A stretch of DNA of 64,000 nt, taken from the NCBI RefSeq assembly GCF_003003215.1, contig NZ_PVUF01000004.1:124001-188000 (forward strand). The letters run 5' to 3'. Shown here piece after piece: positions 13,374 to 38,979 of this stretch (positions within the stretch are counted from its first letter, which is position 1; every line of letters starts with the position of its first letter). The translations under genes and the position numbers were made by a program. The notes below the pieces were generated by a model. That model saw nothing but the letters and a program-made list of their open reading frames with translations, did no database searches and was not told where the DNA came from. Source of the stretch: Tritonibacter scottomollicae. GTDB taxonomy: Bacteria; Pseudomonadota; Alphaproteobacteria; Rhodobacterales; Rhodobacteraceae.

Positions 13374-16300
13374 TTACTCCAGCTCGACCAACAGGTCCTT
13401 GGCGTCGATCTGGCCACCGGGCTGGACGTGTACGGCCTTCACCACCGCGTCGCGCTCGGCATGCAGGCCGGTTTCCATCTTCATCGCCTCGATGGTCAGC
13501 AACAGGTCGCCGTCTTTCACCTTCTGGCCTGGTTGCACCCCGATGGAGGCCACAACCCCCGGCATCGGCGCGCCGATGTGATCCGCGTTACCAACCTCGG
13601 CCTTGGGGCGGGCGGCGGTGGAGGATTTCACCAGACGATTCGGCACGCGAATGACGCGGGGCTGGCCGTTCAGTTCAAAGAACACCTTCACTTCACCCTG
13701 TTCATCGGTCTCGCCGATGGCCTGCAGGCGAATTTCCAGCTTCTTGCCCGGATCGATCTCGGCGGTGATCTCGTCGCCGGGCTCCATGCCGTAAAAGAAG
13801 GTCTGCGTCGGCAGAGCACGGACCGGACCGTATTGGCGGTGGCGGCCCATGTAATCCAGGAAGACCTTGGGATACATCAGATAGCCATTGAGATCCTCGT
13901 CATCGACGGTGAGGCCTTCCAGCTCCTTCGACAGATCCGCGCGGGTGCTTTCGATATCCACCGGCTCCAGATGCGCACCGGGGCGTTCGGTGTTCGGGGC
14001 CTCGCCCTTCAGCACCTTCTTGACGATGCCGTCGGGGAACCCACCCGGAGGCTGGCCGAGGTTGCCGCGCATCATGTCCACCACCGAGTCGGGGAAGGAG
14101 ACGTCGGATTTCGGGTCTTCGACCTGCGCGCGGGTCAGGCCCTGAGAGACCATCATCAGCGCCATGTCACCGACCACCTTGGACGAAGGTGTCACTTTCA
14201 CGATGTCACCGAACATCTGGTTCACATCGGCATAGGTCTGGGCGACCTCGTGCCAGCGCTCCTCCAGGCCAAGGCTGCGCGCCTGTGCCTTGAGGTTGGT
14301 GAACTGGCCGCCGGGCATCTCGTGCAGATAGACCTCGGAGGCCGGCGCCATCAGGCCGCTCTCGAACGCTGCATATTGCGCGCGCACGTTTTCCCAGTAT
14401 TCCGAGATTTCGCGGATGTTGCCGATGTCCAGACCGGTGTCGCGGTCGGTGTTCTTCAGCGCCTCCACGATGGACCCCAGACAGGGCTGCGAGGTGCCGC
14501 CAGAGAAGGCATCCATTGCCGCATCCACCGCATCGACGCCCGCATCCGCAGCCGCCAGAATGGTCGCGCCCGCAATGCCGGAGGTGTCATGGGTGTGGAA
14601 GTGGATCGGCAGGCCGACCTCTTCCTTCAGCGCCTTGATCAGCAGTTTGGCAGAGGCCGGTTTCAACAGCCCCGCCATGTCCTTCAGGCCCAGCACATGG
14701 GCGCCCGCCGCTTCCAGTTCCTTGGCCATGCCGACGTAGTATTTCACGTCGTATTTGGCGCGCTCGGGATCAAGGATGTCGCCGGTATAACAGATGGTGC
14801 CTTCGCAGATCTTGCCGCTCTCCACCACGGCGTCCATGGCGACGCGCATGTTCTCGACCCAATTGAGGCTGTCAAAGACGCGGAAGACGTCGATGCCTTT
14901 GGCGGCTTCCTTGACGAAGAACTGCACCACATTGTCGGGATAGTTGGTGTAACCCACCCCGTTGGAGGCGCGCAGCAGCATCTGGGTCATCAGGTTCGGC
15001 ATTGCCTCGCGCAGGTCGCGCAGACGCTGCCAGGGGCATTCCTGCAAGAAACGATAGGCCACATCGAACGTCGCCCCGCCCCAGCACTCGACCGAGAACA
15101 GCTGGCTGAGGTTTTGCGCATAGGCAGGCGCCACCTTGATCATGTCATGGCTGCGCATGCGGGTGGCCAGCAGGGACTGGTGGCCATCGCGCATGGTGGT
15201 GTCGGTAAGCAGCAACTGCCGCTGCGCCGTCATCCAGTCCGCGACGGCCTTGGCGCCCTTCTGCTCCAGCAGGTTGCGGGCACCATAGGGGGTGTTGCCC
15301 TTGTCGACCTTGGGCGCGCGCGGCTCCTTCAGGTCGGGATGCGGCGCGGCGCGGCCCTCGGTTTCCGGGTGACCGTTGACGGAGATATCCGCGATATAGG
15401 TCAGCACCTTGGTGCCGCGGTCGCGGCGCTTGGCAAAGTGGAACAGCTCCGGCGTCTCGTCGATGAACTTGGTGGTGTATTCATTCGACAGGAAGGTCGG
15501 ATGCTTCAGCAGGTTCTCGACAAAGGCGATGTTGGTGCTGACACCGCGCACCCGGAATTCGCGCAGCGCGCGGTCCATACGGGCGATCGCCTTCTCCGGC
15601 GTTGGCGCCTTGGCCGTCACCTTGGTCAGCAGGCTGTCATAGTACCGCGTGATCACGCCGCCCGCATAGGCGGTGCCGCCATCCAGACGGATGCCCATGC
15701 CGGTGGCAGAGCGATAGGCCGTGATGCGGCCATAGTCGGGGATGAAGTTGTTGAGCGGATCCTCGGTGGTGACGCGGGTCTGCAGCGCGTGGCCGTTGAG
15801 GGTGATCTCGTCTTGGCTGGCCTTGCCGGTGGCCTCTGCCAGCGTCTTGCCCTCGGCAATCAGGATCTGTGCCTGCACGATGTCGATGCCGGTGACTTCT
15901 TCGGTGACGGTGTGTTCCACCTGCACCCGCGGGTTCACCTCGATGAAGTAGAACTTCTCCGTCTCCATATCCATCAGGAATTCGACGGTACCGGCGCATT
16001 CATAGTTCACATGTTGGCAGATCTTGCGGCCCAGATCGCAGATCTCGGTCCGTTGCGCATCCGTCAGATAGGGCGCAGGCGCGCGTTCCACGACCTTCTG
16101 GTTGCGGCGCTGCACGGAGCAGTCGCGCTCAAACAGATGGTAGATCTCGCCGTGCTTGTCGCCGAGGATCTGCACCTCGACGTGACGGGCGCGGGTGATC
16201 ATTTTCTCCAGATAGCCCTCGCCATTGCCGAATGCGGCTTCGGCCTCGCGGCGACCTTCCAGAACCTTCTCTTCCAGCTCGTCCTCAGAGTGGATCGGAC

Positions 16301-16814
16301 GCATGCCGCGTCCGCCGCCCCCCCAGGAGGCCTTCAGCATCAGGGGATAGCCGACCTCACCCGCTTCCTTGCGGATCGCGTCCATGTCGGTGCCCAGCAC
16401 CTCGGTGGCGGGAATGACCGGCACACCGGCCTCTACGGCCACGCGACGGGCGCTGGCCTTGTCGCCCAAGGCGCGCATGGTCTCGGCCTTCGGGCCGATA
16501 AAGGTGATGCCGTTGCGCGCGCAGGCGTCCACGAAATCGGGGTTTTCCGACAAGAGGCCATAGCCCGGGTGGATCGCATCAGCACCGCATTCCTTGGCGA
16601 CGCGAATGATCTCGTCGATGGAGAGATAGGCCGCGACAGGGCCGAGGCCCTCGCCGATGCGATAGGCTTCATCCGCCTTGAAGCGGTGCAGGCCCAGTTT
16701 GTCCTCCTCCGCATAGACGGCGACGGTGCGTTTGCCCATTTCGTTGGCGGCGCGCATCACACGGATGGCGATCTCACCACGGTTGGCAATCAGGATTTTG
16801 TTGAACTCAGTCAT
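13374..16814 (-). CDS. pyc: pyruvate carboxylase
   Basis: An 1146-residue single-chain anaplerotic enzyme that makes oxaloacetate from pyruvate, bicarbonate and ATP. Domains in order: biotin carboxylase (about 1-455; ILIANRGEIAIRV, KASWGGGGRGMR ATP loop, EVNPRVQVEHTVTE), carboxyltransferase (about 535-810; LLTDTTMRDGHQSLLATRMRS metal site, LGLKDMAGLLKP), a PYC/OADA domain and the C-terminal biotinyl domain with the modified Lys1112 in EAMKMET. Start 16814 has a GGGGGAAAG ribosome site and gives the normal length. No partner subunit is needed. Confidence 0.96.
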   Translation of the reverse strand: MTEFNKILIANRGEIAIRVMRAANEMGKRTVAVYAEEDKLGLHRFKADEAYRIGEGLGPVAAYLSIDEIIRVAKECGADAIHPGYGLLSENPDFVDACARNGITFIGPKAETMRALGDKASARRVAVEAGVPVIPATEVLGTDMDAIRKEAGEVGYPLMLKASWGGGGRGMRPIHSEDELEEKVLEGRREAEAAFGNGEGYLEKMITRARHVEVQILGDKHGEIYHLFERDCSVQRRNQKVVERAPAPYLTDAQRTEICDLGRKICQHVNYECAGTVEFLMDMETEKFYFIEVNPRVQVEHTVTEEVTGIDIVQAQILIAEGKTLAEATGKASQDEITLNGHALQTRVTTEDPLNNFIPDYGRITAYRSATGMGIRLDGGTAYAGGVITRYYDSLLTKVTAKAPTPEKAIARMDRALREFRVRGVSTNIAFVENLLKHPTFLSNEYTTKFIDETPELFHFAKRRDRGTKVLTYIADISVNGHPETEGRAAPHPDLKEPRAPKVDKGNTPYGARNLLEQKGAKAVADWMTAQRQLLLTDTTMRDGHQSLLATRMRSHDMIKVAPAYAQNLSQLFSVECWGGATFDVAYRFLQECPWQRLRDLREAMPNLMTQMLLRASNGVGYTNYPDNVVQFFVKEAAKGIDVFRVFDSLNWVENMRVAMDAVVESGKICEGTICYTGDILDPERAKYDVKYYVGMAKELEAAGAHVLGLKDMAGLLKPASAKLLIKALKEEVGLPIHFHTHDTSGIAGATILAAADAGVDAVDAAMDAFSGGTSQPCLGSIVEALKNTDRDTGLDIGNIREISEYWENVRAQYAAFESGLMAPASEVYLHEMPGGQFTNLKAQARSLGLEERWHEVAQTYADVNQMFGDIVKVTPSSKVVGDMALMMVSQGLTRAQVEDPKSDVSFPDSVVDMMRGNLGQPPGGFPDGIVKKVLKGEAPNTERPGAHLEPVDIESTRADLSKELEGLTVDDEDLNGYLMYPKVFLDYMGRHRQYGPVRALPTQTFFYGMEPGDEITAEIDPGKKLEIRLQAIGETDEQGEVKVFFELNGQPRVIRVPNRLVKSSTAARPKAEVGNADHIGAPMPGVVASIGVQPGQKVKDGDLLLTIEAMKMETGLHAERDAVVKAVHVQPGGQIDAKDLLVELE

Positions 16815-17239
16815 CTTTCCCCCGAGGTCTTTATGGGTTGGGCAAGTGGTGAAGGCTGTATGACACGCGGACCATTTGGTCCTCTGGGTGTCTGCGGCAT
16901 GATTGCGCTCACTTGCGCCCCTTTTCTTGAATTCCGGCAGGTGGGCGTGCCGAAATGCGAAATTGAAGCCGAGAACTCCCGGCTTTTGCCGCCACGGCAG
17001 GCCGTTTGGGAAGGCGGGCTGGCGATGTTGTACCGAGCGATCGCGCTTGGTGCACGCATTTTTTTGCACTGCAGCATTTTGAGGGTCGCCTTTCGAGCGT
17101 TAACCACTCTTTCGGATAGGACTTCTATTCGAGCGTATTTCGGATAAATTTTAATCAACATCGACGGATCAGTCAGAAGCGATCCTCCAGACCACCGCAA
17201 AGCAAGGTCACACGCTCAACGAAACGAAGGACTCAACAG
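16815..17239. other. divergent intergenic region between pyc and a BLUF gene
   Basis: 425 bases without a supportable gene; the frames that cross it are shadows of pyc. The last 200 bases are AT-richer than their surroundings, with TTCGGATA at 17109 and again near 17139, and probably hold the BLUF-gene promoter. No hairpin or riboswitch-like fold was recognised. Confidence 0.5.
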
Positions 17240-22907: not shown

Positions 22908-23134
22908 AATCCGGGGATTGGTCATTTCTGCTATGCAGCAAGTGCATGGGTATAAGGGATATTCTTCCACGTTTTGCCCAAAGTCTGCGCGACAATATTT
23001 CCTTTCGCCACATATCTGGGCAAGAATTTGTCGCCATGCCTGTTAGCGCTGTCAATTTGTCGCTTGGGCCCCGTGCATGCAGCGCATATATCCGGTGAAA
23101 GCCCGAAGCGATGGCCCAAAAAGGAGTAGTCCCC

Positions 23135-24214
23135 ATGTCAGTGACCAAGGAAGAGATTCGCGCCGCACTGGAGCGTTTGGAGCTTCCCGACGGTGGCACG
23201 TTGGTGTCGCGCGACATGCTGCGCGCCCTCACCATAGAAGGTGACACCGTGCGGTTCGTGATCGAAGCGCCTTCGCCGCAGATCGCCGGGCAGATGGAAC
23301 CGCTGCGCCGCGCGGCACAGGCCTGCGTCGCGGAACTGCCGGGGGTCGAGGAGGTCTCGGTGGTGCTGACCGCCCATGGTCCGGCACAGGCCGGCCCCCA
23401 GAAAGCCGCACCCAGCCTCAAGCTGGGCGGTCATCCCAAACCGCAGGCCGCACCAATGAAGCCCTCGGGCGTCAAGCGTATCCTTGCCATCGCCTCCGGC
23501 AAGGGTGGCGTCGGCAAATCCACCGTCAGCGCCAATCTCGCCGTGGCCCTGGCGCGGCAGGGGCGCAAGGTCGGCCTGCTGGACGCGGATATATACGGTC
23601 CCTCGCAGCCGCGCATGATGGGGGTCTCCGGACGCCCCGCCAGCCCGGATGGCACCACGATCGAGCCGCTGCACGCCCATGGGGTCACGGTAATGTCGAT
23701 CGGCTTCATGGTGGAGGAGCGCAAGGCGGTGGTCTGGCGTGGCCCGATGCTGATGGGGGCGCTGCAGCAGATGCTGGGGCAGGTGAACTGGGGTGAGCTG
23801 GACGTGCTGATCGTCGATCTGCCACCGGGCACCGGCGATGTGCAGCTCACCCTCTGCACCAAGGCGGAGCTGACGGGGGCCATCGTGGTTTCAACACCGC
23901 AGGATGTCGCGCTGCTGGATGCCCGCAAGGCGCTGGACATGTTCGACACGCTCAAGACTCCGGTGTTGGGGCTGATTGAGAACATGTCCTTCTTTACCTG
24001 TCCCGATTGCGGCGGCACTCACAACATCTTTGGCAATGGCGGTGTCGCGGCCGAGGCCGAGGCCCTGCGTCTGCCGCTGCTTGGCGCACTGCCGATCGAC
24101 CTTGAAACACGGTTGGCCGGGGACGGTGGCACGCCGATTGCGGCCGGCGATGGGCCGATGGCCGAGGCCTACGCCCGTATCGCGAGCGGGCTTGTCGAGG
24201 GCGGCATGGCCTGA
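23135..24214 (+). CDS. mrp: Mrp/ApbC (NBP35-type) Fe-S cluster carrier ATPase
   Basis: A 359-residue protein. The N-terminal DUF59/MIP18-like segment (about 1-85) is followed by the ParA/Mrp ATPase domain with the deviant Walker [48 protein letters not shown] and the cluster-binding CPDC in [17 protein letters not shown]. It is expected to carry an Fe-S cluster to client enzymes in the cytosol. ATG 23135 has an AAGGAG ribosome site. The stop lies directly beside the degraded prophage arm. Confidence 0.93.
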
Positions 24215-24245
24215 TCAACGACCTGCCACGCCTCGGGCCAAGTCG

Positions 24246-24413
24246 ATGCAAACCTCCGTGGGCAACCACTCGGCGGCGATTGATCAGATCAGCACCGGCG
24301 TGGATGGTCTGAAGGCGGAGTATGTCATGCGCGCTTCAGCCAGTGGCGTGGTTGGCGGCGCGGTGATTGGTGCGGACGCCGGGGATGGCCGCGGGGTAGG
24401 CGTCCAGCGATGA
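24246..24413 (+). pseudogene. 3' fragment of a phage tail-tip (J-like) gene
   Basis: 55 residues reading TSVGNHSAAIDQISTGVDGL and KAEYVMRASASGVVGGAVIG, the pattern found near the C-terminus of lambda J-type tail-tip proteins (DUF1983-like). No ribosome site or N-terminal part is present, so only the 3' end survives. The tail-tip gene at 61301 belongs to the same protein class. Confidence 0.6.
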
Positions 24414-24432
24414 CGCACCACCCGGCAAGCTG

Positions 24433-25093
24433 ATGAAAGTGTCAGCCTTTGGCCTCGGCGAGATCACTGAGCCCAGCCTCCCGGGCGATGTGTTCCAGTT
24501 CAACGCAACGGGTGTCTACTACGCGCGGCCAGCGAGTTCACTCGGTGCAGGTGATACGCCTTATCAGGGCAATTTCCATGTGTGGAAATCCCAACGGGAT
24601 GAGGACTTTCGAACCGCGCTCCTTATCGCGCAGGGCGTGCGGAGCCTGACGCATAATTGGCGTCAGGCACGGCTCTCTTCAGGGTCCATGGGGCCGTTTG
24701 TTTCATACTGAAAACGTGGTTGGAACCGTCTCGCAGTCCGCAGGCAAGGTCACGGGGGCCGCGGTGCAATACGGCAGCGGGCCGGGCGGCAAGTTCCGCC
24801 GCTTCGCTGACGGCACGCAGGAATGCTGGGTCACCAGCCCGGAGGTCGTGACCGATACGCTGGTCGACTCGCGCGACATCTCCGCCGAGGGGTGGGAATG
24901 GGATTTTCCGGCCGGGTTCCTCTCGACGCCGAATGTCCATGTCACCGCTCGCCGTTGGTCCGGTGCGCATGCGCTTAGCGCCATGAATGGCTCGGGCACC
25001 TTTGGCATCAATGGCTGTAAGCTGCTGCTGTCCACGGAGTACGAGGGCAACTCTGGCTTTCTGCACGGCTATGCCATTGGCCGCTGGTACTAA
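24433..25093 (+). pseudogene. frameshifted tail-fibre gene
   Basis: Two adjacent reading frames make one tail-fibre-like product. Frame one (24433-24711) has VSAFGLGEITEPSLPGDVFQ and runs to GVRSLTHNWRQAR. Frame two (open to 25093) resumes with the RLFHTENVVGTVSQ segment typical of phage tail fibres and ends with HVTARRWSGAHALSAMNGSG and GYAIGRWY. The shift occurs close to 24690. A 5' truncation is also likely. Confidence 0.65.
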
Positions 25094-25109
25094 GACAGGA
25101 GACACCCAG

Positions 25110-25433
25110 ATGCATGAGATTGAATTTTCCCCGCGTGCCGGTCTGCCCGGTCAGCGCGAAACACAGGCCACTGTCAGCGGTGACACGGTGACAGTGGACG
25201 GCATCGCCTATGACCTGTCCGCCGTCCCTGAGGGCGGGTTTGCCGAGGCTGACGGCGACCAGCACCCGTTCCGGGGGCGCATCGCGCGCAGCGGTGGCGT
25301 CTTGCGCTATTGCCTGCGCTGGCGGTTTGACCCTGCCACGGCAGAGCCAGCCCAGCCCGAAGCGATGCCCTCTGCAGCGCTGACCGCTGGCCCGGTTCCA
25401 GATCCCATCATCCGCCGGGAGGGCGCAGCATGA
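25110..25433 (+). CDS. small phage tail-region protein, unknown
   Basis: A 107-residue protein, MHEIEFSPRAGLPGQRETQATVSGD, with a beta-rich first half (TVTVDGIAYDLSAVPEGG, HPFRGRIARSGGVLRYCLRWRF) and a Pro/Ala-rich tail. I recognise no named family. A CAGGAGAC ribosome site precedes the ATG at 25110, and its stop overlaps the next start (ATGA). Its position between tail fibre and DUF4376 gene suggests a tail-fibre assembly role. Confidence 0.7.
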   Translation: MHEIEFSPRAGLPGQRETQATVSGDTVTVDGIAYDLSAVPEGGFAEADGDQHPFRGRIARSGGVLRYCLRWRFDPATAEPAQPEAMPSAALTAGPVPDPIIRREGAA

Positions 25434-25831
25434 CGTTTGAATTGAAGATCACCACCGCGGAGCAAGTCATCGAACAGGACCGGGCCAAGGCCCTGTCCAG
25501 CCTCGCCGATTTCCGCTGGCAGTGTGCCATGGCGGGCGTGGTGCTGCCGGGCGGTCTGCATATTCCGGGCGATGAGGTGACGCGGCTGTCGCTCTCCGGC
25601 GCGGTCAGTGCTTTGCAGCAGGGCATGATCTCCGAGCCGCTGGCGTGGAAGACGCCCACCGGCTTTGTCGAGCTGACGCAGGTGCAGGTCGAGGCGGCGG
25701 CGCAAGCGGTGGTGCAGCACATTCAGGCCTGCTTTGTCGCCGAGGCCACAGTGGCCGCGCAGATCGAGGCGACGGGCGATCCCGCAGGCTTTGACATCCA
25801 GACGGCCTTTGGCGCGGCGCTGGCCGCATAA
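25430..25831 (+). CDS. DUF4376-like phage protein
   Basis: A 133-residue helical protein resembling the DUF4376 domain found in and beside phage tail-fibre assembly proteins: RAKALSSLADFRWQCAMAGVVLPGG, TRLSLSGAVSALQQGM, WKTPTGFVELTQVQVEAAAQAVVQHIQACF. It is coupled to the previous gene by ATGA. A 9-bp hairpin at 25846-25854/25861-25869 follows the stop. The gene is intact despite the decayed neighbours. Confidence 0.75.
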   Translation: MTFELKITTAEQVIEQDRAKALSSLADFRWQCAMAGVVLPGGLHIPGDEVTRLSLSGAVSALQQGMISEPLAWKTPTGFVELTQVQVEAAAQAVVQHIQACFVAEATVAAQIEATGDPAGFDIQTAFGAALAA

Positions 25832-25967
25832 TGCAATCGGGAGGCTGAGAGGCGCGCAAACGCCTCTCAACACGGGGCCAACATTCTCACAAGTAACCCC
25901 GCCGACCAGCTTACACTTCATGGCCGCCTCCTGTCCTCGAGGACGGCCTTCTTTGGAGTGATTCCAC

Positions 25968-26171
25968 TTGAAGCTGCAAGACCAACGTTGTGGTGGATGC
26001 CGCAAGTTGCTATTCAAACTGGAGCCCGGCGCACTTGTCGGGGCGTTGTCTATCAAATGCCCCAGGTGCCGCGCTCATATCGAATTGAGGCCCTTGAGCC
26101 CTTCACCAGAACGCCCCGAGCGTGACGGAAAGGACCCAAAGTGTGGCTCTTTGTTCCCCCCGACGACTTGA
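25968..26171 (+). CDS. com: Com-like translational regulator (zinc finger)
   Basis: A 67-residue protein whose first half matches the Mu Com family: RCGGCRKLLFKLE followed by LSIKCPRCRAHIELRPL, giving four zinc-binding cysteines in two CxxC pairs. In Mu, Com binds mom mRNA and opens its translation start. Here com overlaps the start of a cytosine methyltransferase gene by 50 bases, so it probably controls that gene. It starts with TTG at 25968 behind a GGAG site (25955-25958). Confidence 0.8.
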   Translation: MKLQDQRCGGCRKLLFKLEPGALVGALSIKCPRCRAHIELRPLSPSPERPERDGKDPKCGSLFPPTT

Positions 26172-27042
26172 CGAGTTTCTCGGCATCAGCCTTTGCGCCG
26201 GTGTCGCAGGACTTGATCTCGGCCTTCACCTCGCAGAATCCGGATATCGAACTGTGTGTTATGTCGAACGAAACAGTTTCGCCGCGGCCACTCTCGTGGC
26301 GCGGATGGCGGACACGTCCCTGGATCCGGCTCCTGTTTGGGACGATCTCAAATCCTTCGATGGCAGACCGTGGCGTGGCCGCGTTCATATTGTCACTGCC
26401 GGTTATCCCTGCCAGCCCTTCACGCTCTCCGGAGTGCGGCGGGGAGAGCAGGACCCACGCCATCTCTGGCCGGACGTCGCACGGGTTGTGCGGGAGGTCC
26501 GGCCCGAGTGGTGTTTCTTCGAGAACGTCCCAGGGCATCTCACCCTTGGCCTGCAAGACGTCGTCGGAGATCTTCAGGGCATGGGCTACCGGGTTGCAGC
26601 GCGCATCGTATCAGCGGCGGAAGTCAGCGGGACGCATACCCGTGAAAGGCTGTTCATTCTGGCCCACGCCGACGTTCAAGAGCGGGGGCAACCGGGCGTG
26701 CATCGTCGGCACGCCTCAGGGTCTGCAGTTCAAGGCGGATCTGAACCAGACTGGCAAACAGTTCGGGATCAAGAACGCAGCCAGTGCCTGGACGCTGATG
26801 TGGGATCTGATGGGAGCGGCGGGGTGGACGCCGCAGCGGTTCCGCTCTTCCCACCGCTTCCGGGTGATTTTGCTGAGTGGGGAGAAACACTCCGGCGATC
26901 CCCTGAGCTTAAACCCTGCGTTCACGGACTGGATGATGGGGTGGCCTTCGGGCTGGAGCGATCCGCTGCAGCCGGCAACGGGGTGGTCCCAATGGCTGCG
27001 GCGCGCGCGTTCCTCGATCTGCAGCAGGAGCTTGTAGTGTGA
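26122..27042 (+). CDS. DNA cytosine-5 methyltransferase
   Basis: A 306-residue C5-MTase with the motifs in order: I (ISLCAGVAGLDLGLHLAESG), IV with the catalytic Cys (TAGYPCQPFTLSG), VI (CFFENVPGH), VIII (GTHTRERLFILA), a target-recognition stretch (about 190-255) and X (AAAGNGVVPMAAA). All catalytic elements are present. It starts at GTG 26122 inside com, in another frame, copying the com-mom overlap of Mu with a different modification enzyme. Its likely role is protecting phage DNA from restriction; the target site is unknown. Confidence 0.85.
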   Translation: MTERTQSVALCSPRRLDEFLGISLCAGVAGLDLGLHLAESGYRTVCYVERNSFAAATLVARMADTSLDPAPVWDDLKSFDGRPWRGRVHIVTAGYPCQPFTLSGVRRGEQDPRHLWPDVARVVREVRPEWCFFENVPGHLTLGLQDVVGDLQGMGYRVAARIVSAAEVSGTHTRERLFILAHADVQERGQPGVHRRHASGSAVQGGSEPDWQTVRDQERSQCLDADVGSDGSGGVDAAAVPLFPPLPGDFAEWGETLRRSPELKPCVHGLDDGVAFGLERSAAAGNGVVPMAAARAFLDLQQELVV

Positions 27043-27102
27043 AACCCACTTGAAGGGGCGTTCAACGCCCCTTCAATCCCACCTCAGCCCAAAACTGCGT
27101 TG

Positions 27103-27163
27103 CTGTAAAAAAGTCTGTAAATCACTGTAAAAAAGTCCGTCACGCTACATCCGTCACGCTACA
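27103..27163 (+). repeat. putative right end of the remnant prophage (transposase-binding repeats)
   Basis: CTGTAAAAAAGTC occurs at 27103-27115 and 27125-27137, exactly 22 bp apart, the spacing of MuA sites. It is followed by CCGTCACGCTACA twice in tandem (27137-27149, 27151-27163), each copy ending in the CA expected of a Mu-type end. Confidence 0.6.
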
Positions 27164-27165
27164 AA

Positions 27166-27194
27166 TGTAGGGTGACAGACTTATTTACAGTGAT
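27166..27194 (+). repeat. putative left end of the second Mu-like prophage
   Basis: TGTAGGGTGACAGAC at 27166-27180, continuing to 27194, matches the inverted complement of 27121-27149 at 26 of 29 positions. It begins with TG, as Mu-type left ends do. The two ends face outward with 16 bases between them. Confidence 0.6.
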
Positions 27195-27848
27195 CCCGGA
27201 AGAGGACCGAAGAAGACGGAAGATCTCGGAAGGCCAACAAAATAGGGCTATGAGGCAACAATCGGACGTATAAGCGCCATTATGTGCTGTTTTGCAGTAA
27301 ATCGCGATTTGCCCCCAAACTGGGCCGCAGGCGCTGGAGTGTCGATGTGGATGGTTGTGCGGGGGGCAACGGGCAAAACGCCGTTTAAACAAGGCTTCAA
27401 AGGCTCGCTGAAGCAGCCGTCGCAGAGTGGAATTTGTCGGAAAGCTAAGCTCGGAACTGGGACCATCGCTGCTCAGTTCGATTTTGCGGTCCCAGCTCGG
27501 TGTTTTTGTATTCAATAGTAGCGAGTTAGCTGCTGGCGGTGGCGTTGAGTGGGCGTGTCGAACTGGGACCTGATTTCAGCACCAGCGACTTCGTTCATAC
27601 CTTGATTCAGTTCGTGAAAAGAAAGGTTCTCAGCCCCCTGCAAAGCACACAGAAGTTTCGCTCTTCGCTCAGTTGCAGGCGGCAGTACAGCTTTCGGATT
27701 GCCTTCATACAATGCTACCGTGGATTGTGCTACGGCACTGCAGGCGTAGCGTGTCGTCTCAGCTTTACAAGCTAGAGATAACTCGTTCAACGTTGGGGTG
27801 CTATGACGCGAAATAGTATAAATTAAACGATTCTTTAGAGAGAAGCGT
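27195..27848. other. non-coding left-end region
   Basis: 654 bases with no convincing gene. A minus-strand frame (27512-27862, 116 codons) is possible but unlike any family. GAACTGGGACC occurs at 27454-27464 and 27560-27570, with GGTCCCAG inverted at 27488-27495. AAATCGCGATTT (27298-27309) is a 12-bp palindrome. These could be extra transposase or regulator sites. Confidence 0.45.
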
Positions 27849-34950: not shown

Positions 34951-35204
34951 ACCAGTTTCGCGAAACCCCAAAACCAAAATCCATCACTCACGGGAAGGCC
35001 GGGGTTTTCGCGACAAGCGAGGCCGAGGTCTCGCAGGGTCCAGGCTGCGCCACACCGGCGCTCACTTTGCGCGCGGCCTGGACGCGCTTTCGCCGCGCCG
35101 AGCGGCAATTTTCTAGCAGCATTTGGGGCGATGTCTTGGGAGCCATCAGCCTCGCCATCATCTTTGGCGGTTTGCTCTACGCGCCGCTGCTTTGGCCGCA
35201 TTGA
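34947..35204 (+). CDS. small protein with one C-terminal membrane helix
   Basis: 85 residues with a polar N-terminal half (NQFRETPKPKSITHGKAG) and a single hydrophobic helix at about 61-80 (DVLGAISLAIIFGGLLYAPL). Coupled by ATGA to the preceding gene. No family was recognised. As an early membrane protein of a prophage it could serve superinfection exclusion, but nothing in the sequence proves it. Confidence 0.6.
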   Translation: MNQFRETPKPKSITHGKAGVFATSEAEVSQGPGCATPALTLRAAWTRFRRAERQFSSSIWGDVLGAISLAIIFGGLLYAPLLWPH

Positions 35205-35221
35205 ACGAGGGAATTCAGGTC

Positions 35222-36079
35222 ATGAAAGCGACCATCATCCAGTCGATCACCGAATTGCCGGTCGGCGACATTGATATGAACAACAGGCTGCGCCCCGTAT
35301 CCAGCGCGGGTGTCGAAGCCATCAAAGCGTCGATAACCGAGCTAGGGGTGATGAAGGACGCGATCCACGTCCGCAAGATCAAGCGCAGCGGCAAGATTGA
35401 GCTGCTGGCCGGGGCGCACCGCCTGACGGCCGCGGGCGATCTCGGCTGGGAAACCATCAAGGTGGTATGCTGGGACTGCAATGACGACTTCGCCCGGCTG
35501 ATGGAGATCGACGACAATCTCGCCGGGGCTGAGCTGACCGCGCTCGACACCGCCGTTTTTCTCGCGGAGCGCAAGAAGGTCTACGAAAGACTGCACCCAG
35601 AAGCGACGCGCGGCGGCGCACGTGGAAATCAACATACCGGCGGTTGGCAAACGGACACGATGTCCTTTTGCCAAGCTACAGCGGAAAAATTCGGGATCTC
35701 CGACCGCCATGTGCGCCGGATGGTCAGCGCAGGGTCGGTATTGACCGGCGGCGATGCTCATCGGCTGCGCTCCTCGGAGAGGCCCATCACGCTCAATGAC
35801 CTGACCGAAATAGCCAAGATCGGCGACGTCAGCGAGCGGTATCGTGTGATTGATCTGCTTGCCGAAGGGGCTGCCAAATCCGCCAAAGACGCGCGCAAGA
35901 CGTGGGCCAGCGAGCAAAACAAGGGCGTCACGCCCCCGATGAACAACACGGAAAAGACGTGGCAGCGGCTGCAGGACGCGTGGAAACGCGCGCCAAAGGC
36001 TGGCCGCGTGACCTTTCTCGAAGAACACGGCGACGAGGTGCAGGCGCTCCTTGACGAAATCCGGGGAGGGCGTGGTTGA
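35222..36079 (+). CDS. ParB/Srx-fold nuclease-domain protein
   Basis: A 285-residue protein whose first 110 residues carry a ParB-like fold: LPVGDIDMNNRLRPVSSAGVEAIKASI, then IELLAGAHRLTAAGDLGWETIKVV with the G-HR signature and the Glu-rich DFARLMEIDDNLAG. A helix-turn-helix follows (CQATAEKFGISDRHVRRMV) before a charged C-terminus. ParB-like genes next to mu A are usual in Rhodobacter-type Mu-like phages. The role may be in target choice or transposition control. The start at 35222 gives the canonical N-terminus; the stop overlaps the transposase start. Confidence 0.82.
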   Translation: MKATIIQSITELPVGDIDMNNRLRPVSSAGVEAIKASITELGVMKDAIHVRKIKRSGKIELLAGAHRLTAAGDLGWETIKVVCWDCNDDFARLMEIDDNLAGAELTALDTAVFLAERKKVYERLHPEATRGGARGNQHTGGWQTDTMSFCQATAEKFGISDRHVRRMVSAGSVLTGGDAHRLRSSERPITLNDLTEIAKIGDVSERYRVIDLLAEGAAKSAKDARKTWASEQNKGVTPPMNNTEKTWQRLQDAWKRAPKAGRVTFLEEHGDEVQALLDEIRGGRG

Positions 36080-38187
36080 TGGACGCGCCGAGCCAAGATT
36101 GGTGGAGCGCGGCGGAGATCGCCGAGGCGCGTCTTCCTGACCTGCCGACCACCAAACGCAAGATAAACCAGCGCGCCAAGAGCGAAGGCTGGGACCGCCA
36201 GCCGGGCAAGGTGCGCCGCCGCAAGGGGAGGGGCGGCGGGTTGGAATATCATTATTCCCTGTTTCCGGTGCGCGCGCGTCTCGCCTTGATCGAGCCGCCG
36301 CAGGAGATCGAGGCCAAACGCAGCCGCGAGGACGCCTGGGCCGACTTTGACCGTCTGAATGATAATGCGAAACAAAAGGCAGAGGCGCGGCTGAAAGCGG
36401 CTTGCCTAGTTGCCGAGTGCGAAGGCGCGGGCATGATCCGCTCGGCGGCAGTCTCCGCAGTTGCGACACGCTCTGAGGTCTCGGAGAAATCCATCTGGAA
36501 CTGGCTGCAGATGATCGAGGGCGTCGCCGAGGCCGACTGGCTTGCGTTCCTCGCTCCCAAGCCGACCGGCGGGCGTGGGAAGGTCGAGCCGATTGATCCG
36601 GCCTTCTTTGGCCTGATCCGCGATGACTGGCTGCGGCTTGAAGGGCCGTCGCTGACCTCTTGTTACGACCGGGCCAAGCGGGTTGCCAAAAAAGAGGGCC
36701 TGCCGGTCGCGCCGATCCATCAGGTGCGCCGCAAGATGAAGGAGGCCGTGTCCAAACCGACGGAGGTCTTCCTGCGCAAAGGGGCCGAGGCCCTGCGGCG
36801 CTACTATCCGCACCAGGACCGCGACAAGAGCGCACTGAGCGCCATGGAATGCGTCTGCGGCGACTATCACAAGTTCGACGTCTTTGTGCGCTGGCCCGGT
36901 GAGAGCCTTCCGGTGCGCGTCCAGGGCGTGTTTTTCTCAGACGTTTATTCCGGCAAGATCCTGTCCTGGCGTTTGTCGCTGACTGCGAACAGCCACACGG
37001 TGCAGCTTGCGCTTGGTGATCTGATCGAGCGTTTCGGCATCCCCAAATCGGCGCTCCTGGACAACGGTCGGGAGTTTGCGGCCAAGGTCATCACAGGGGG
37101 CACGGAAACCCGCTTCCGCTTCAAGATGCGGGAGGATGATATTCCGGGCCTGCTGCCTATGCTGGGCGTCAAGATCCATTGGGCAACGCCGTACTCTGGG
37201 CAGTCCAAGCCTATCGAACGGGCATTCCGTGACCTCTGCGACCGTGTTGCCAAACACCCTGCATTCGAGGGCGCGTACACCGGCAACAAGCCCGACGCGA
37301 AGCCAGAAAACTATGGCAATCGCGCGGTGCCGCTTGAGGAGTTCATCGCTGTCCTCACCGAAGAGGTTGAAGACCACAATGCCCGCGAGGGACGCCGCAG
37401 CGAAATCGCCTACGGCCGGTCCTTCAATCAGGTGTTTGAAGCCTCCTATAAGGCCACGCCCATTCGCAAGGCGACCAAGGAACAGCGCCGCCTCTGGCTC
37501 ATGGGGGCCGAAGGTCTCAAGGCCAGCGCGAAGAATGGAGAGCTGAAACTGCTCGGTTCCCGCTATTGGGCCGAATGGATGTATCGGATTGCCGGGCAAA
37601 AGGTCGTGGGGCGTTTTGACCCTGACAACGTCCATGCGGGTCTGCACGTCTATGACCTGGACGGGCAGTATATCGGCCATGCGGCCTGTGTTGAGAAAGG
37701 CGATTTCCTCGGTGTGGAAGACGCCCGCGAAATGGCCCGCAAGCGCGGCCAGTTCATCCGAGCCGCCAAGGAAGAAGCCCGCGCAAGCCGAGAGTTTTCC
37801 GCAGCCGAGATCGCCGCGCGCCTTCGGGCCGCTGGCGAAGATGCCAAAGCGAACGATCTGCCCGAGGCGGAAATCGTGCAATTGGTCACGCCCCACGCCA
37901 AAGCCCCGAAGACACCCAAAACACCCGTGCTGATGCGCCGCGACAATGAAGCGGCCACCGAGGCGCGTCTGGAAGCTGAGATCGCCCGGCTGGAAGACCG
38001 CCGCACGCCGGTCGCGGTGGAAGACGATCCCGAAGTCAATTTCGAGCGGTGCCAGGAGTTGGAACGCCTCGACGCAGACGGTCACCCGCTGACCGAAGAG
38101 CAACGCAATTTCCTGCGGGATTATCAACGATCTGCCGCCTATCGGAGCTTCCTGCGCATGCGCAGGGCCTTCGGCGGCGAGGAATAA
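36079..38187 (+). CDS. MuA-like DDE transposase
   Basis: A 702-residue transposase that pairs the phage ends and inserts the genome. N-terminal Mu-type DNA-binding domain (WWSAAEIAEARLPDLPTTKRKINQRA, then EGWDRQPGKVRRRKGRGGG), a second HTH region (about 95-180), and an RNase H-fold core with Asp267 (DYHKFDVFV), Asp328 (LLDNGREF) and Glu380 (KPIERAFRD). Mu has D269, D336 and E392, so spacing is close. The C-terminal 130 residues are helical and charged, as in the MuB/ClpX-interacting part. All catalytic residues are present. Confidence 0.93.
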   Translation: MDAPSQDWWSAAEIAEARLPDLPTTKRKINQRAKSEGWDRQPGKVRRRKGRGGGLEYHYSLFPVRARLALIEPPQEIEAKRSREDAWADFDRLNDNAKQKAEARLKAACLVAECEGAGMIRSAAVSAVATRSEVSEKSIWNWLQMIEGVAEADWLAFLAPKPTGGRGKVEPIDPAFFGLIRDDWLRLEGPSLTSCYDRAKRVAKKEGLPVAPIHQVRRKMKEAVSKPTEVFLRKGAEALRRYYPHQDRDKSALSAMECVCGDYHKFDVFVRWPGESLPVRVQGVFFSDVYSGKILSWRLSLTANSHTVQLALGDLIERFGIPKSALLDNGREFAAKVITGGTETRFRFKMREDDIPGLLPMLGVKIHWATPYSGQSKPIERAFRDLCDRVAKHPAFEGAYTGNKPDAKPENYGNRAVPLEEFIAVLTEEVEDHNAREGRRSEIAYGRSFNQVFEASYKATPIRKATKEQRRLWLMGAEGLKASAKNGELKLLGSRYWAEWMYRIAGQKVVGRFDPDNVHAGLHVYDLDGQYIGHAACVEKGDFLGVEDAREMARKRGQFIRAAKEEARASREFSAAEIAARLRAAGEDAKANDLPEAEIVQLVTPHAKAPKTPKTPVLMRRDNEAATEARLEAEIARLEDRRTPVAVEDDPEVNFERCQELERLDADGHPLTEEQRNFLRDYQRSAAYRSFLRMRRAFGGEE

Positions 38188-38199
38188 GGAGAGCAGAGC

Positions 38200-38979
38200 A
38201 TGACACCTAATATTGCCCCTTTGCGCAACGTCGCAGCACTCACCGCACTGGTTGACCGGGTCCATGACCGATCAATGGGGCTTCCCGGCATGGCGGTTTT
38301 CTACGGCCCCTCAGGGTGGGGAAAAACCACGGCGACCACCTTTGTGACCAATGAATACGGCGCGTATTGCGTGCAGGTTCTGAGCTGCTGGACGCCGAGC
38401 TACTTCCTGCAGTCAATCATGAAGGAAATCGGGCTGAAGCCGGTGCGCGGTGTGCCCGCCATGGTGGACGCCATTGCCGCCAATCTTGCGCGGGTGGACC
38501 GGCCACTGATCATCGACGACGCGCAGTATCTGACCAAGAACAAGAAGCTGATCGAACTGGCGCGGGATCTCTACGAGGCCAGCCAGACGACCTTGATCCT
38601 GGTGGGCGAAGAAGAGCTGCCGCAGCACCTCACCAAATGGGAGAATATCCACAACCGCCAGCTTGCCCATGAACCGGCGCTTGCGTGCAACCTGTCCGAC
38701 GCGACCAAGCTGGCGCAGATCTACAGCCCCACGGTTGAGATCACAGAAGACCTGCTGGGCGCGATTGTAGAAGCCTCGGGCGGGTCGATCCGCCGGGTGG
38801 TGACCAATATCGACCGGGCCAAGGAAACGGCACTGTCCAGGGGCACCAACCACGCGGATCTCGCATTGTGGGGCACCCGCGATTTTGAGACCGGCCAACC
38901 CCCGGCGGTGCGCCGTGTCGCGGCAACGCCTGCCCAAGCGTCCCGCCCGGCTCTCAAAGCGATTGGGGGCCAGAAATGA
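38200..38979 (+). CDS. MuB-like AAA+ transposition ATPase
   Basis: A 259-residue ATPase that should bind target DNA and activate MuA. Walker A YGPSGWGKTTAT (36-45), Walker B RPLIIDDAQYL, sensor TLILVGEEELPQHL and an arginine-rich ASGGSIRRVVTNIDRAK segment match MuB/TniB-type AAA+ proteins. It lies 12 bases after the transposase with a GGAGAGCAG ribosome site. The stop overlaps the next start. Without it, target immunity and efficient replication would be lost in the Mu model. Confidence 0.9.
   Translation: MTPNIAPLRNVAALTALVDRVHDRSMGLPGMAVFYGPSGWGKTTATTFVTNEYGAYCVQVLSCWTPSYFLQSIMKEIGLKPVRGVPAMVDAIAANLARVDRPLIIDDAQYLTKNKKLIELARDLYEASQTTLILVGEEELPQHLTKWENIHNRQLAHEPALACNLSDATKLAQIYSPTVEITEDLLGAIVEASGGSIRRVVTNIDRAKETALSRGTNHADLALWGTRDFETGQPPAVRRVAATPAQASRPALKAIGGQK

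Follow-up and report, generated by a model that had tools for sequence, protein, structure and literature searches.

How do two transposing phages of the same kind come to stop within 16 bases of each other, ahead of the same host gene? The question is raised by a site in the window, the whole stretch of 64,000 nucleotides analyzed here (C4:124001-188000 of a 4.68-Mb draft genome of Tritonibacter scottomollicae). The reading preferred, with a probability of about 0.78, is that 27100-27194 is a junction at which the surviving right end of an old element, A, meets the left end of a younger and complete prophage, B. The following features make up this junction.

27100-27149, plus strand: right end of A, with terminal CA, identical at 50/50 bases to the right end of B (C4:193467-193516)
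27103-27115 and 27125-27137: putative transposase-type sites in the right end of A, recognized as sequence repeats
27150-27163, plus strand: putative 14-bp tail of a still older right end, a tandem copy of the right end's last 14 bases
27161-27165, plus strand: left copy of the target duplication of B, ACAAA, repeated at C4:193517-193521 after B's right end
27166-27194, plus strand: left end of B, with terminal TG; the left ends of relatives are similar
27178-27190, minus strand: putative transposase-type site in the left end of B

A sequence-only reading of this DNA had proposed that the outward-facing ends of two Mu-like prophages lie here, and its description of the bases holds in all particulars: 27121-27149 and 27166-27194 are complementary at 26/29 positions, CTGTAAAAAAGTC recurs with a 22-bp pitch at 27103 and 27125, TCCGTCACGCTACA is duplicated in tandem (27136-27149 and 27150-27163), and the left arm ends in CA while the right arm begins with TG, as Mu-type termini do. 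The inverted match can be extended to 30 bases with 90% complementarity (27121-27150 and 27165-27194), and the best 29-base inverted match in 26800-27600, with gaps of 3-59 allowed, scores 26 against 16-20 in each of 10 dinucleotide shuffles. The left end of B carries CTGTAAATAAGTC on the minus strand at 27178, and CTGTAAAWAAGTC, with at most 2 mismatches, occurs four times in the window against a mean of 0.59, a number that 0/100 shuffles reach. The same reading had predicted a right end past 64 kb followed by a 5-bp target duplication, and both were found there: a copy of 27100-27149 that agrees at 50/50 bases and, directly after it, the ACAAA of 27161-27165. A left end near 33.8 kb, which would have spoken against it, is not where B begins, its left end being at 27166. 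Its proposal of a tandem pair of related elements stands insofar as a right end meets, head-to-tail, the left end of a related Mu-like element; the element on the right is indeed a prophage, but its left partner is a right-arm remnant and not a second prophage.

Since both ends were located and ACAAA flanks them, B measures 42,351 bp with a 5-bp duplication, and it reads as a complete Mu-like prophage with the following features.

27166-64000, continuing to C4:193516, plus strand: prophage B, 42,351 bp, delimited by both ends, the 5-bp duplication and phage genes
33886-34635, minus strand: repressor-like gene (HTH and peptidase S24)
35123-36079, plus strand: ParB-like gene (PF02195), directly before the transposase
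36076-38187, plus strand: MuA-type transposase (PF02914 E 2e-48, PF09039, PF02316, PF09299; phrog_310 E 2e-166)
38200-38979, plus strand: MuB-type AAA ATPase (phrog_296 E 2e-56)

Its genes follow the order repressor-like, ParB-like, MuA, MuB, amidase, terminase, portal, head, major head protein, tape measure and tail fibre, so that transposition, lysis, head and tail genes are all present; the matches to virion genes comprise terminase, portal, minor head, major head protein, tape measure and tail fibre. The Mu-like character of B is seen in a MuA-type DDE transposase accompanied by a MuB-type ATPase, in TG...CA ends with repeated (putative) transposase-type sites and in the 5-bp duplication ACAAA on both sides. 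The succession of a ParB-like gene and MuA is shared with three isolated Rhodobacteraceae phages. Between the left end and the repressor, 27849-33132 matches bSEFIR (PADLOC E 1e-99) and a PifA-type KAP NTPase (E 3e-259), and these genes are likely anti-phage cargo. Just inside the left end, at 27197-27232, three CGGAAGA-like units are spaced by 10 bp, a possible binding or bending array; the left ends of relatives likewise run into CGGAAGA-type sequence. Elsewhere in the window, ORFs of 1231 and 1239 codons overlap on opposite strands at 13374-17147; one of them is probably a high-GC artefact, and the plus-strand ORF had no Pfam or PHROG match.

The left flank is of a different nature. Host genes extend from the left up to mrp, and phage sequence is recognized shortly after it.

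23111-24214, plus strand: host gene mrp (NUBPL/ParA-type Fe-S ATPase; PF10609 E 6e-97)
24427-27149, plus strand: remnant of element A, right arm only (translated similarity, tail-fibre-like match, C5 methylase)
25430-25831: tail-fibre-like ORF of A
26122-27042, plus strand: DNA cytosine methylase gene of A (PF00145 E 3e-26; phrog_363 E 4e-55)

The expectation of the sequence-only reading that right-arm phage genes lie left of the junction was correct, as tail-fibre-like genes and the cytosine methylase precede the right end. In translated comparisons, matches to B and to a further phage locus begin at 24427 and 24665; the 212 bp that separate mrp from recognized phage sequence (24215-24426) may also belong to A. 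A stretch of 669 bp (25468-26136) is 94% identical to B's right arm, and 26547-27149 is 86% identical to a scar in the genome G008. A was found to consist of right-arm sequence and a right end only, the sole MuA gene of the genome being that of B, and C4:84001-225000 yielded no left end for A; by what it retains, A is a right-arm remnant of 2.7-2.9 kb adjoining mrp. A DNA search of phage records with 24215-27149 gave no match. Just inside the right end of A, 27050-27076 forms a perfect 13-bp hairpin, likely a terminator, and several relatives have similar GAAGGGG...CCCCTTC stretches ahead of their right ends.

Beyond what was noted earlier, the pair occupies a recurrent insertion site before mraZ. 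This gene (PF02381) lies 677 bp downstream of B's right end, with TGGGA-type boxes between them that we take to resemble the operator repeats of MraZ. At the 17 mraZ sites collected below, the first TGGGA box follows the right end at 10-71 bp, a loose position, and in genus members that lack a right end (e.g., G011, G002, G012) the end of mrp runs, as read by eye, straight into the boxes and mraZ. The mraZ leader had no Rfam match at the gathering threshold. In R. sphaeroides, mraZ is described, in the portion of the source available, as having a 268-nt leader with the sRNA UpsM (PMC5089854), from which, by analogy, the right end of B probably lies upstream of the mraZ promoter.

Within the genus, mraZ was matched in 17/18 genomes, and in nine of these 17 a right end, whole or partial, lies upstream of the gene (G000, G001, G004, G005, G006, G008, G009, G010, G016). 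A full-length MuA gene occurs in 5/18 genomes, at 73-100% identity, and all five carriers fit a prophage immediately upstream of mraZ, on one contig in G000, G001 and G006 and split, with fitting junctions, in G004 and G010; in G005, G008, G009 and G016 the right end is present at mraZ and a MuA match is absent. In G016 and G008 (loci L153 and L154) mrp and mraZ converge, with mrp ~8.5 kb on the downstream side of mraZ; the window genome differs in this, and the arrangement is read as an inversion next to the scarred site.

Across the family, the MuA search (two best candidates per genome scored) matched 52/394 genomes. Full-length MuA genes of at least 53% identity from the genus and family searches number 11, nine of them at mraZ and two (G088, G303) upstream of a preT-like gene; a partial MuA gene of 54% identity in G132 was left out of this count. 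In G426 a MuA gene lies 37 kb downstream of mraZ. A DNA pattern of the right end was found in 20/394 family genomes (28 rows, 26 distinct places, one probably by chance) and in 17/47 genomes of a set picked for MuA relatives or genus membership and thus not a random sample (26 rows, 25 distinct places), while the reversed control pattern matched 3/394 and 0/47 genomes. The total for Rhodobacteraceae is 51 distinct right ends. Seventeen of them lie 645-701 bp before the start of mraZ, all in the same orientation; 10/51 run into a left end within 16 bp, a proportion that is not a rate, since left ends were located for part of the loci only; one (G205) is probably a chance match; and the remaining 23 are directed at the start of some other conserved gene, 23/23 being co-directional with it. 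Draft contigs break at the repeated ends. A weaker pattern places further right ends or parts of them at mraZ in G005, G010, G367 and G445. The 23 right ends away from mraZ fall at 12 targets, five of which recur in at least two genomes in a grouping checked by tblastn.

Acyl-CoA dehydrogenase: 5 genomes (G434, G435, G436, G437, G116)
DUF2852: 4 genomes (G280, G380, G154, G030)
nrdR: 3 genomes (G442, G441, G453)
ybjN: 2 genomes (G460, G108)
preT-like oxidoreductase: 2 genomes (G088, G303)
Single targets, seven: sufT-like, guaB-like, rpoH-like, acetyl-CoA synthetase, tat operon, second acyl-CoA dehydrogenase, pdeM-like

The sufT-, guaB-, tat- and pdeM-like targets were named by eye; Pfam supports 9/10 of the target proteins tested, mraZ included, and the pdeM-like protein had no match. 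At these sites the first possible start codons follow ~54-263 bp downstream of the right end. On a MuA tree of 24 rows, selected for a known target, the mraZ label can be placed with 4 changes, where shuffles require 8.3 (0/500 as low), yet identical right ends stand at two different genes within G436 and likewise within G380; the mraZ habit thus follows the transposase, but as a preference for a class of sites. Phages of this group, as their ends are distributed, integrate repeatedly, keeping a fixed orientation, ahead of a limited number of genes. Two right ends in G434 (C21:219080-221196) point apart with ~2 kb between them, one facing the acyl-CoA dehydrogenase and the other abutting a left end, and a third, at 264667, faces the second acyl-CoA dehydrogenase.

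The ends also keep a record of succession. The 14-bp tandem copy at 27150-27163, which the sequence-only reading had left as a duplication, fits a third, older right end: the best interpretation is that A inserted into that end, of which this tail is left; the opening TCCGT is the predicted target duplication of A. Comparable tails with matching duplications occur where a new element sits inside an older right end in G004 (GTAAA, read over two contigs), G006 (GCAAT) and G439 (CTGGT). In other genomes a left end and a right end adjoin, separated by exactly 5 bp (e.g., G001, G094, G435, G442, G460), and right flanks at mraZ and elsewhere carry repeated tails such as GTCACGCTACA. Insertions are accordingly read as falling inside, abutting or just beyond older right ends and leaving tail scars, and the layers of the window, from old to young, may be a tentative decayed tail, GACGCTACA, that follows B, then the 14-bp tail, A and B.

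Both junctions could be read in 22 elements, and the 5-bp duplications match in 11 of them (G000, G004, G006, G015, G088, G303, G435, G436, G439, G445, G460), the two ends being on different contigs and assumed to be of one element in G004, G015 and G460. The other 11 do not match: G001, G094, G123, G280, G434, G441, G442 and G463, together with G010, which fits only as 7 bp, G370, which fits only with an end 4 bp longer, and G127, where two left ends stand back to back. Recombination within tandem arrays could explain the mismatches. The left junction of G127 (L196), ~5.2 kb before MuA, has ~5 bp between its back-to-back left ends and is read as an inverted neighbour at mraZ. Two viral contigs, of 82 kb (L294/L319) and 73 kb (L301/L318), each have two MuA genes 39 kb apart and, ahead of the second, a junction composed of a right end, ACAGT and a left end; these are apparently two prophages in tandem. 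In G015 a left end (L172, C41:120464 onward) and a right end (L171, C77:1038) share the flank ACCAC on two contigs, the right end lying before the tat operon; the genome has no MuA match and other B-like sequence is present, so that the element is perhaps transposase-deleted.

Could older ends alone attract newer ones? In that case the transpososome would be drawn to related right ends anywhere, and mraZ would simply be the site of an ancient first insertion. The 10/51 right ends that meet a left end at 16 bp or less, several of them at exactly 5 bp, are in keeping with such attraction, as are the elements lodged inside right ends in G004, G006 and G439. Against it stand clean first insertions whose left side lacks an older right end, at mraZ in G436 (CCCCG) and G445 (ACGTG; the exact left end has alternatives 2 bp either side) and at the preT-like gene in G303 (GTCTG), and the recurrence of the same target genes in different genera. 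These clean insertions and their duplications favour a feature on the host side, which makes attraction by older ends unlikely as the whole explanation, although it may contribute besides that feature. In G123 the element starts ~36 bp past the mrp stop, with a duplication that does not match.

A second alternative holds that insertion is random and that selection spares harmless insertions, prophages accumulating in tolerant intergenic spots. The sites precede genes, at positions where an insertion may do little harm, and replicative transposition of the Mu-like phages of Citromicrobium is reported, in the part of the account available, to be chromosome-wide (PMC12486242); tolerance alone, however, would not lead one to expect the fixed orientation (17/17 at mraZ and 23/23 at other sites), the narrow range of positions at mraZ or the same genes across genera, and we regard this alternative as improbable. 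An origin of the tandem from a single prophage, by its duplication or by homologous recombination, rather than from two insertions would suit right ends identical over 50 bases and the lack of matching duplications in half of the examined elements, but it is very hard to credit given that B has its own 5-bp duplication, that A and B resemble each other in DNA only in the 669-bp stretch (94%) and in the last 112 bp (90%), and that most of A's methylase gene is unmatched in B.

The reading retained, repeated insertion at a site favoured by the host side, can be put as a sequence of events. On this reading B arrived by ordinary Mu-type transposition with a 5-bp duplication. The target feature would lie on the right, on the gene side, so that insertion leaves it intact and later phages hit almost identical bases, whether next to the earlier right end, slightly past it or within it; older prophages would be pushed to the left and decay by deletion until the right end and short tails remain. 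The ends, duplications, nested right ends, orientation, recurrence across genera and clean first insertions can be read in the DNA itself; from them we infer that target capture is guided by a feature on the gene side and that the loss of A came after a further insertion at the site. Candidate guiding features are a promoter, an operator-bound regulator or DNA shape. In its widest form, to which we give somewhat less than even odds, the proposal is that this clade gave up near-random integration and instead captures, in one orientation, regulatory regions ahead of a few core genes, which it reads via a host DNA-bound regulator or promoter complex and without effective end immunity, leaving a layered infection record before mraZ and a dozen other genes.

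Several simpler ideas were set aside. The gene mraZ is not a single attachment site, as 23 right ends lie upstream of 12 other genes and identical right ends stand at two genes in G436 and G380, the latter also arguing that no single sequence is recognized; no shared motif was found among the target sites. The ParB-like protein does not appear to select the target, its pairwise identities not sorting by target in a comparison in which no ORF was found at that place in G439 and G303 and the ORFs from G370 and G094 look unrelated. GANTC is uninformative as a common feature, being within 300 bp in 10/22 non-mraZ flanks (22 of the 23 available were compared).

If true, the proposal would provide a natural system for studying how target capture by MuA and MuB is steered, and would allow one to ask whether target capture is under the guidance of a host regulator or a promoter complex. 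The tails left by right ends are in addition a readable record of infection, by which prophage turnover can be measured at a fixed locus across many species.

Phage Mu and B are alike in their MuA- and MuB-type proteins, TG...CA ends and 5-bp duplication. Textbooks cite Mu for transposition that is near random and for immunity close to its ends, and the phages described here contrast with it. It is said to insert randomly in the available part of one account (PMC12486242), and its cis-immunity is given in another, also available in part, as strongest within ~5 kb of its own ends (PMC7350765); whereas Mu shuns DNA close to its own ends, relatives of B insert inside right ends and only 16 bp separate B itself from an identical one, although A, now a remnant, may have been in another state when B arrived. 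Closest to B are the Mu-like roseobacter siphophages Thiobacimonas phage vB_ThpS-P1 (KT381864) and Pelagibaca phage vB_PeaS-P1 (KT381865), with MuA 62% and 43% identical to that of B, a ParB-like gene ahead of MuA and the same type of right end. The GenBank record of vB_ThpS-P1, an induced roseophage, continues ~60 bp past the right end, into a flank with mraZ-type TGGGA boxes. The accessible sections of the paper on these two phages report no random host sequence of >1 kb at the virion ends and contain no description of the target site, right-end scars or mraZ-type flank (PMC5488378).

Site bias itself has a precedent in the Mu-like phages phiA and phiB of Citromicrobium, for which the available part of the account gives 5-bp duplications and a strong bias in lysogenic integration, phiA using one 40-bp zone in 24 strains and phiB six hotspots (n=20); the phiA zone is inside a hypothetical gene, unlike the upstream sites found here, and upstream regions, fixed orientation, nested scars and cross-genus targets are not described in that part (PMC12486242). 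Insertion upstream of promoters in conserved orientation, with the right inverted repeat on the promoter side, is attributed to TnGBS, ISLre2 and the ISKra4 group, which the excerpted source presents as Mutator-like DDE transposases of conjugative elements and insertion sequences, whereas B is a MuA/MuB phage (PMC3942029). The transposase of B matches the Mu family and not the Mutator-like type, and the distance to the gene start is loose here (~54-701 bp, measured to gene starts and not promoters) when set against the promoter spacing of the TnGBS type. Tn7, homing to attTn7, also inserts in fixed orientation and reuses one site near a conserved gene; the phages described here differ in having several targets and loose spacing, and no TnsD/TniQ-like protein was matched among the ORFs scanned, which cover part of those of B. 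In one open-access library, a literature search for Mu-like phages with mraZ returned only a Thermus genome paper, and the available portion of a survey of Rhodobacteraceae prophages held nothing on Mu-like target sites (PMC8224337). Judged from that library, site-biased integration by Mu-like phages is already published, whereas the orientation rule, the targets shared across genera and the nested scars look new.
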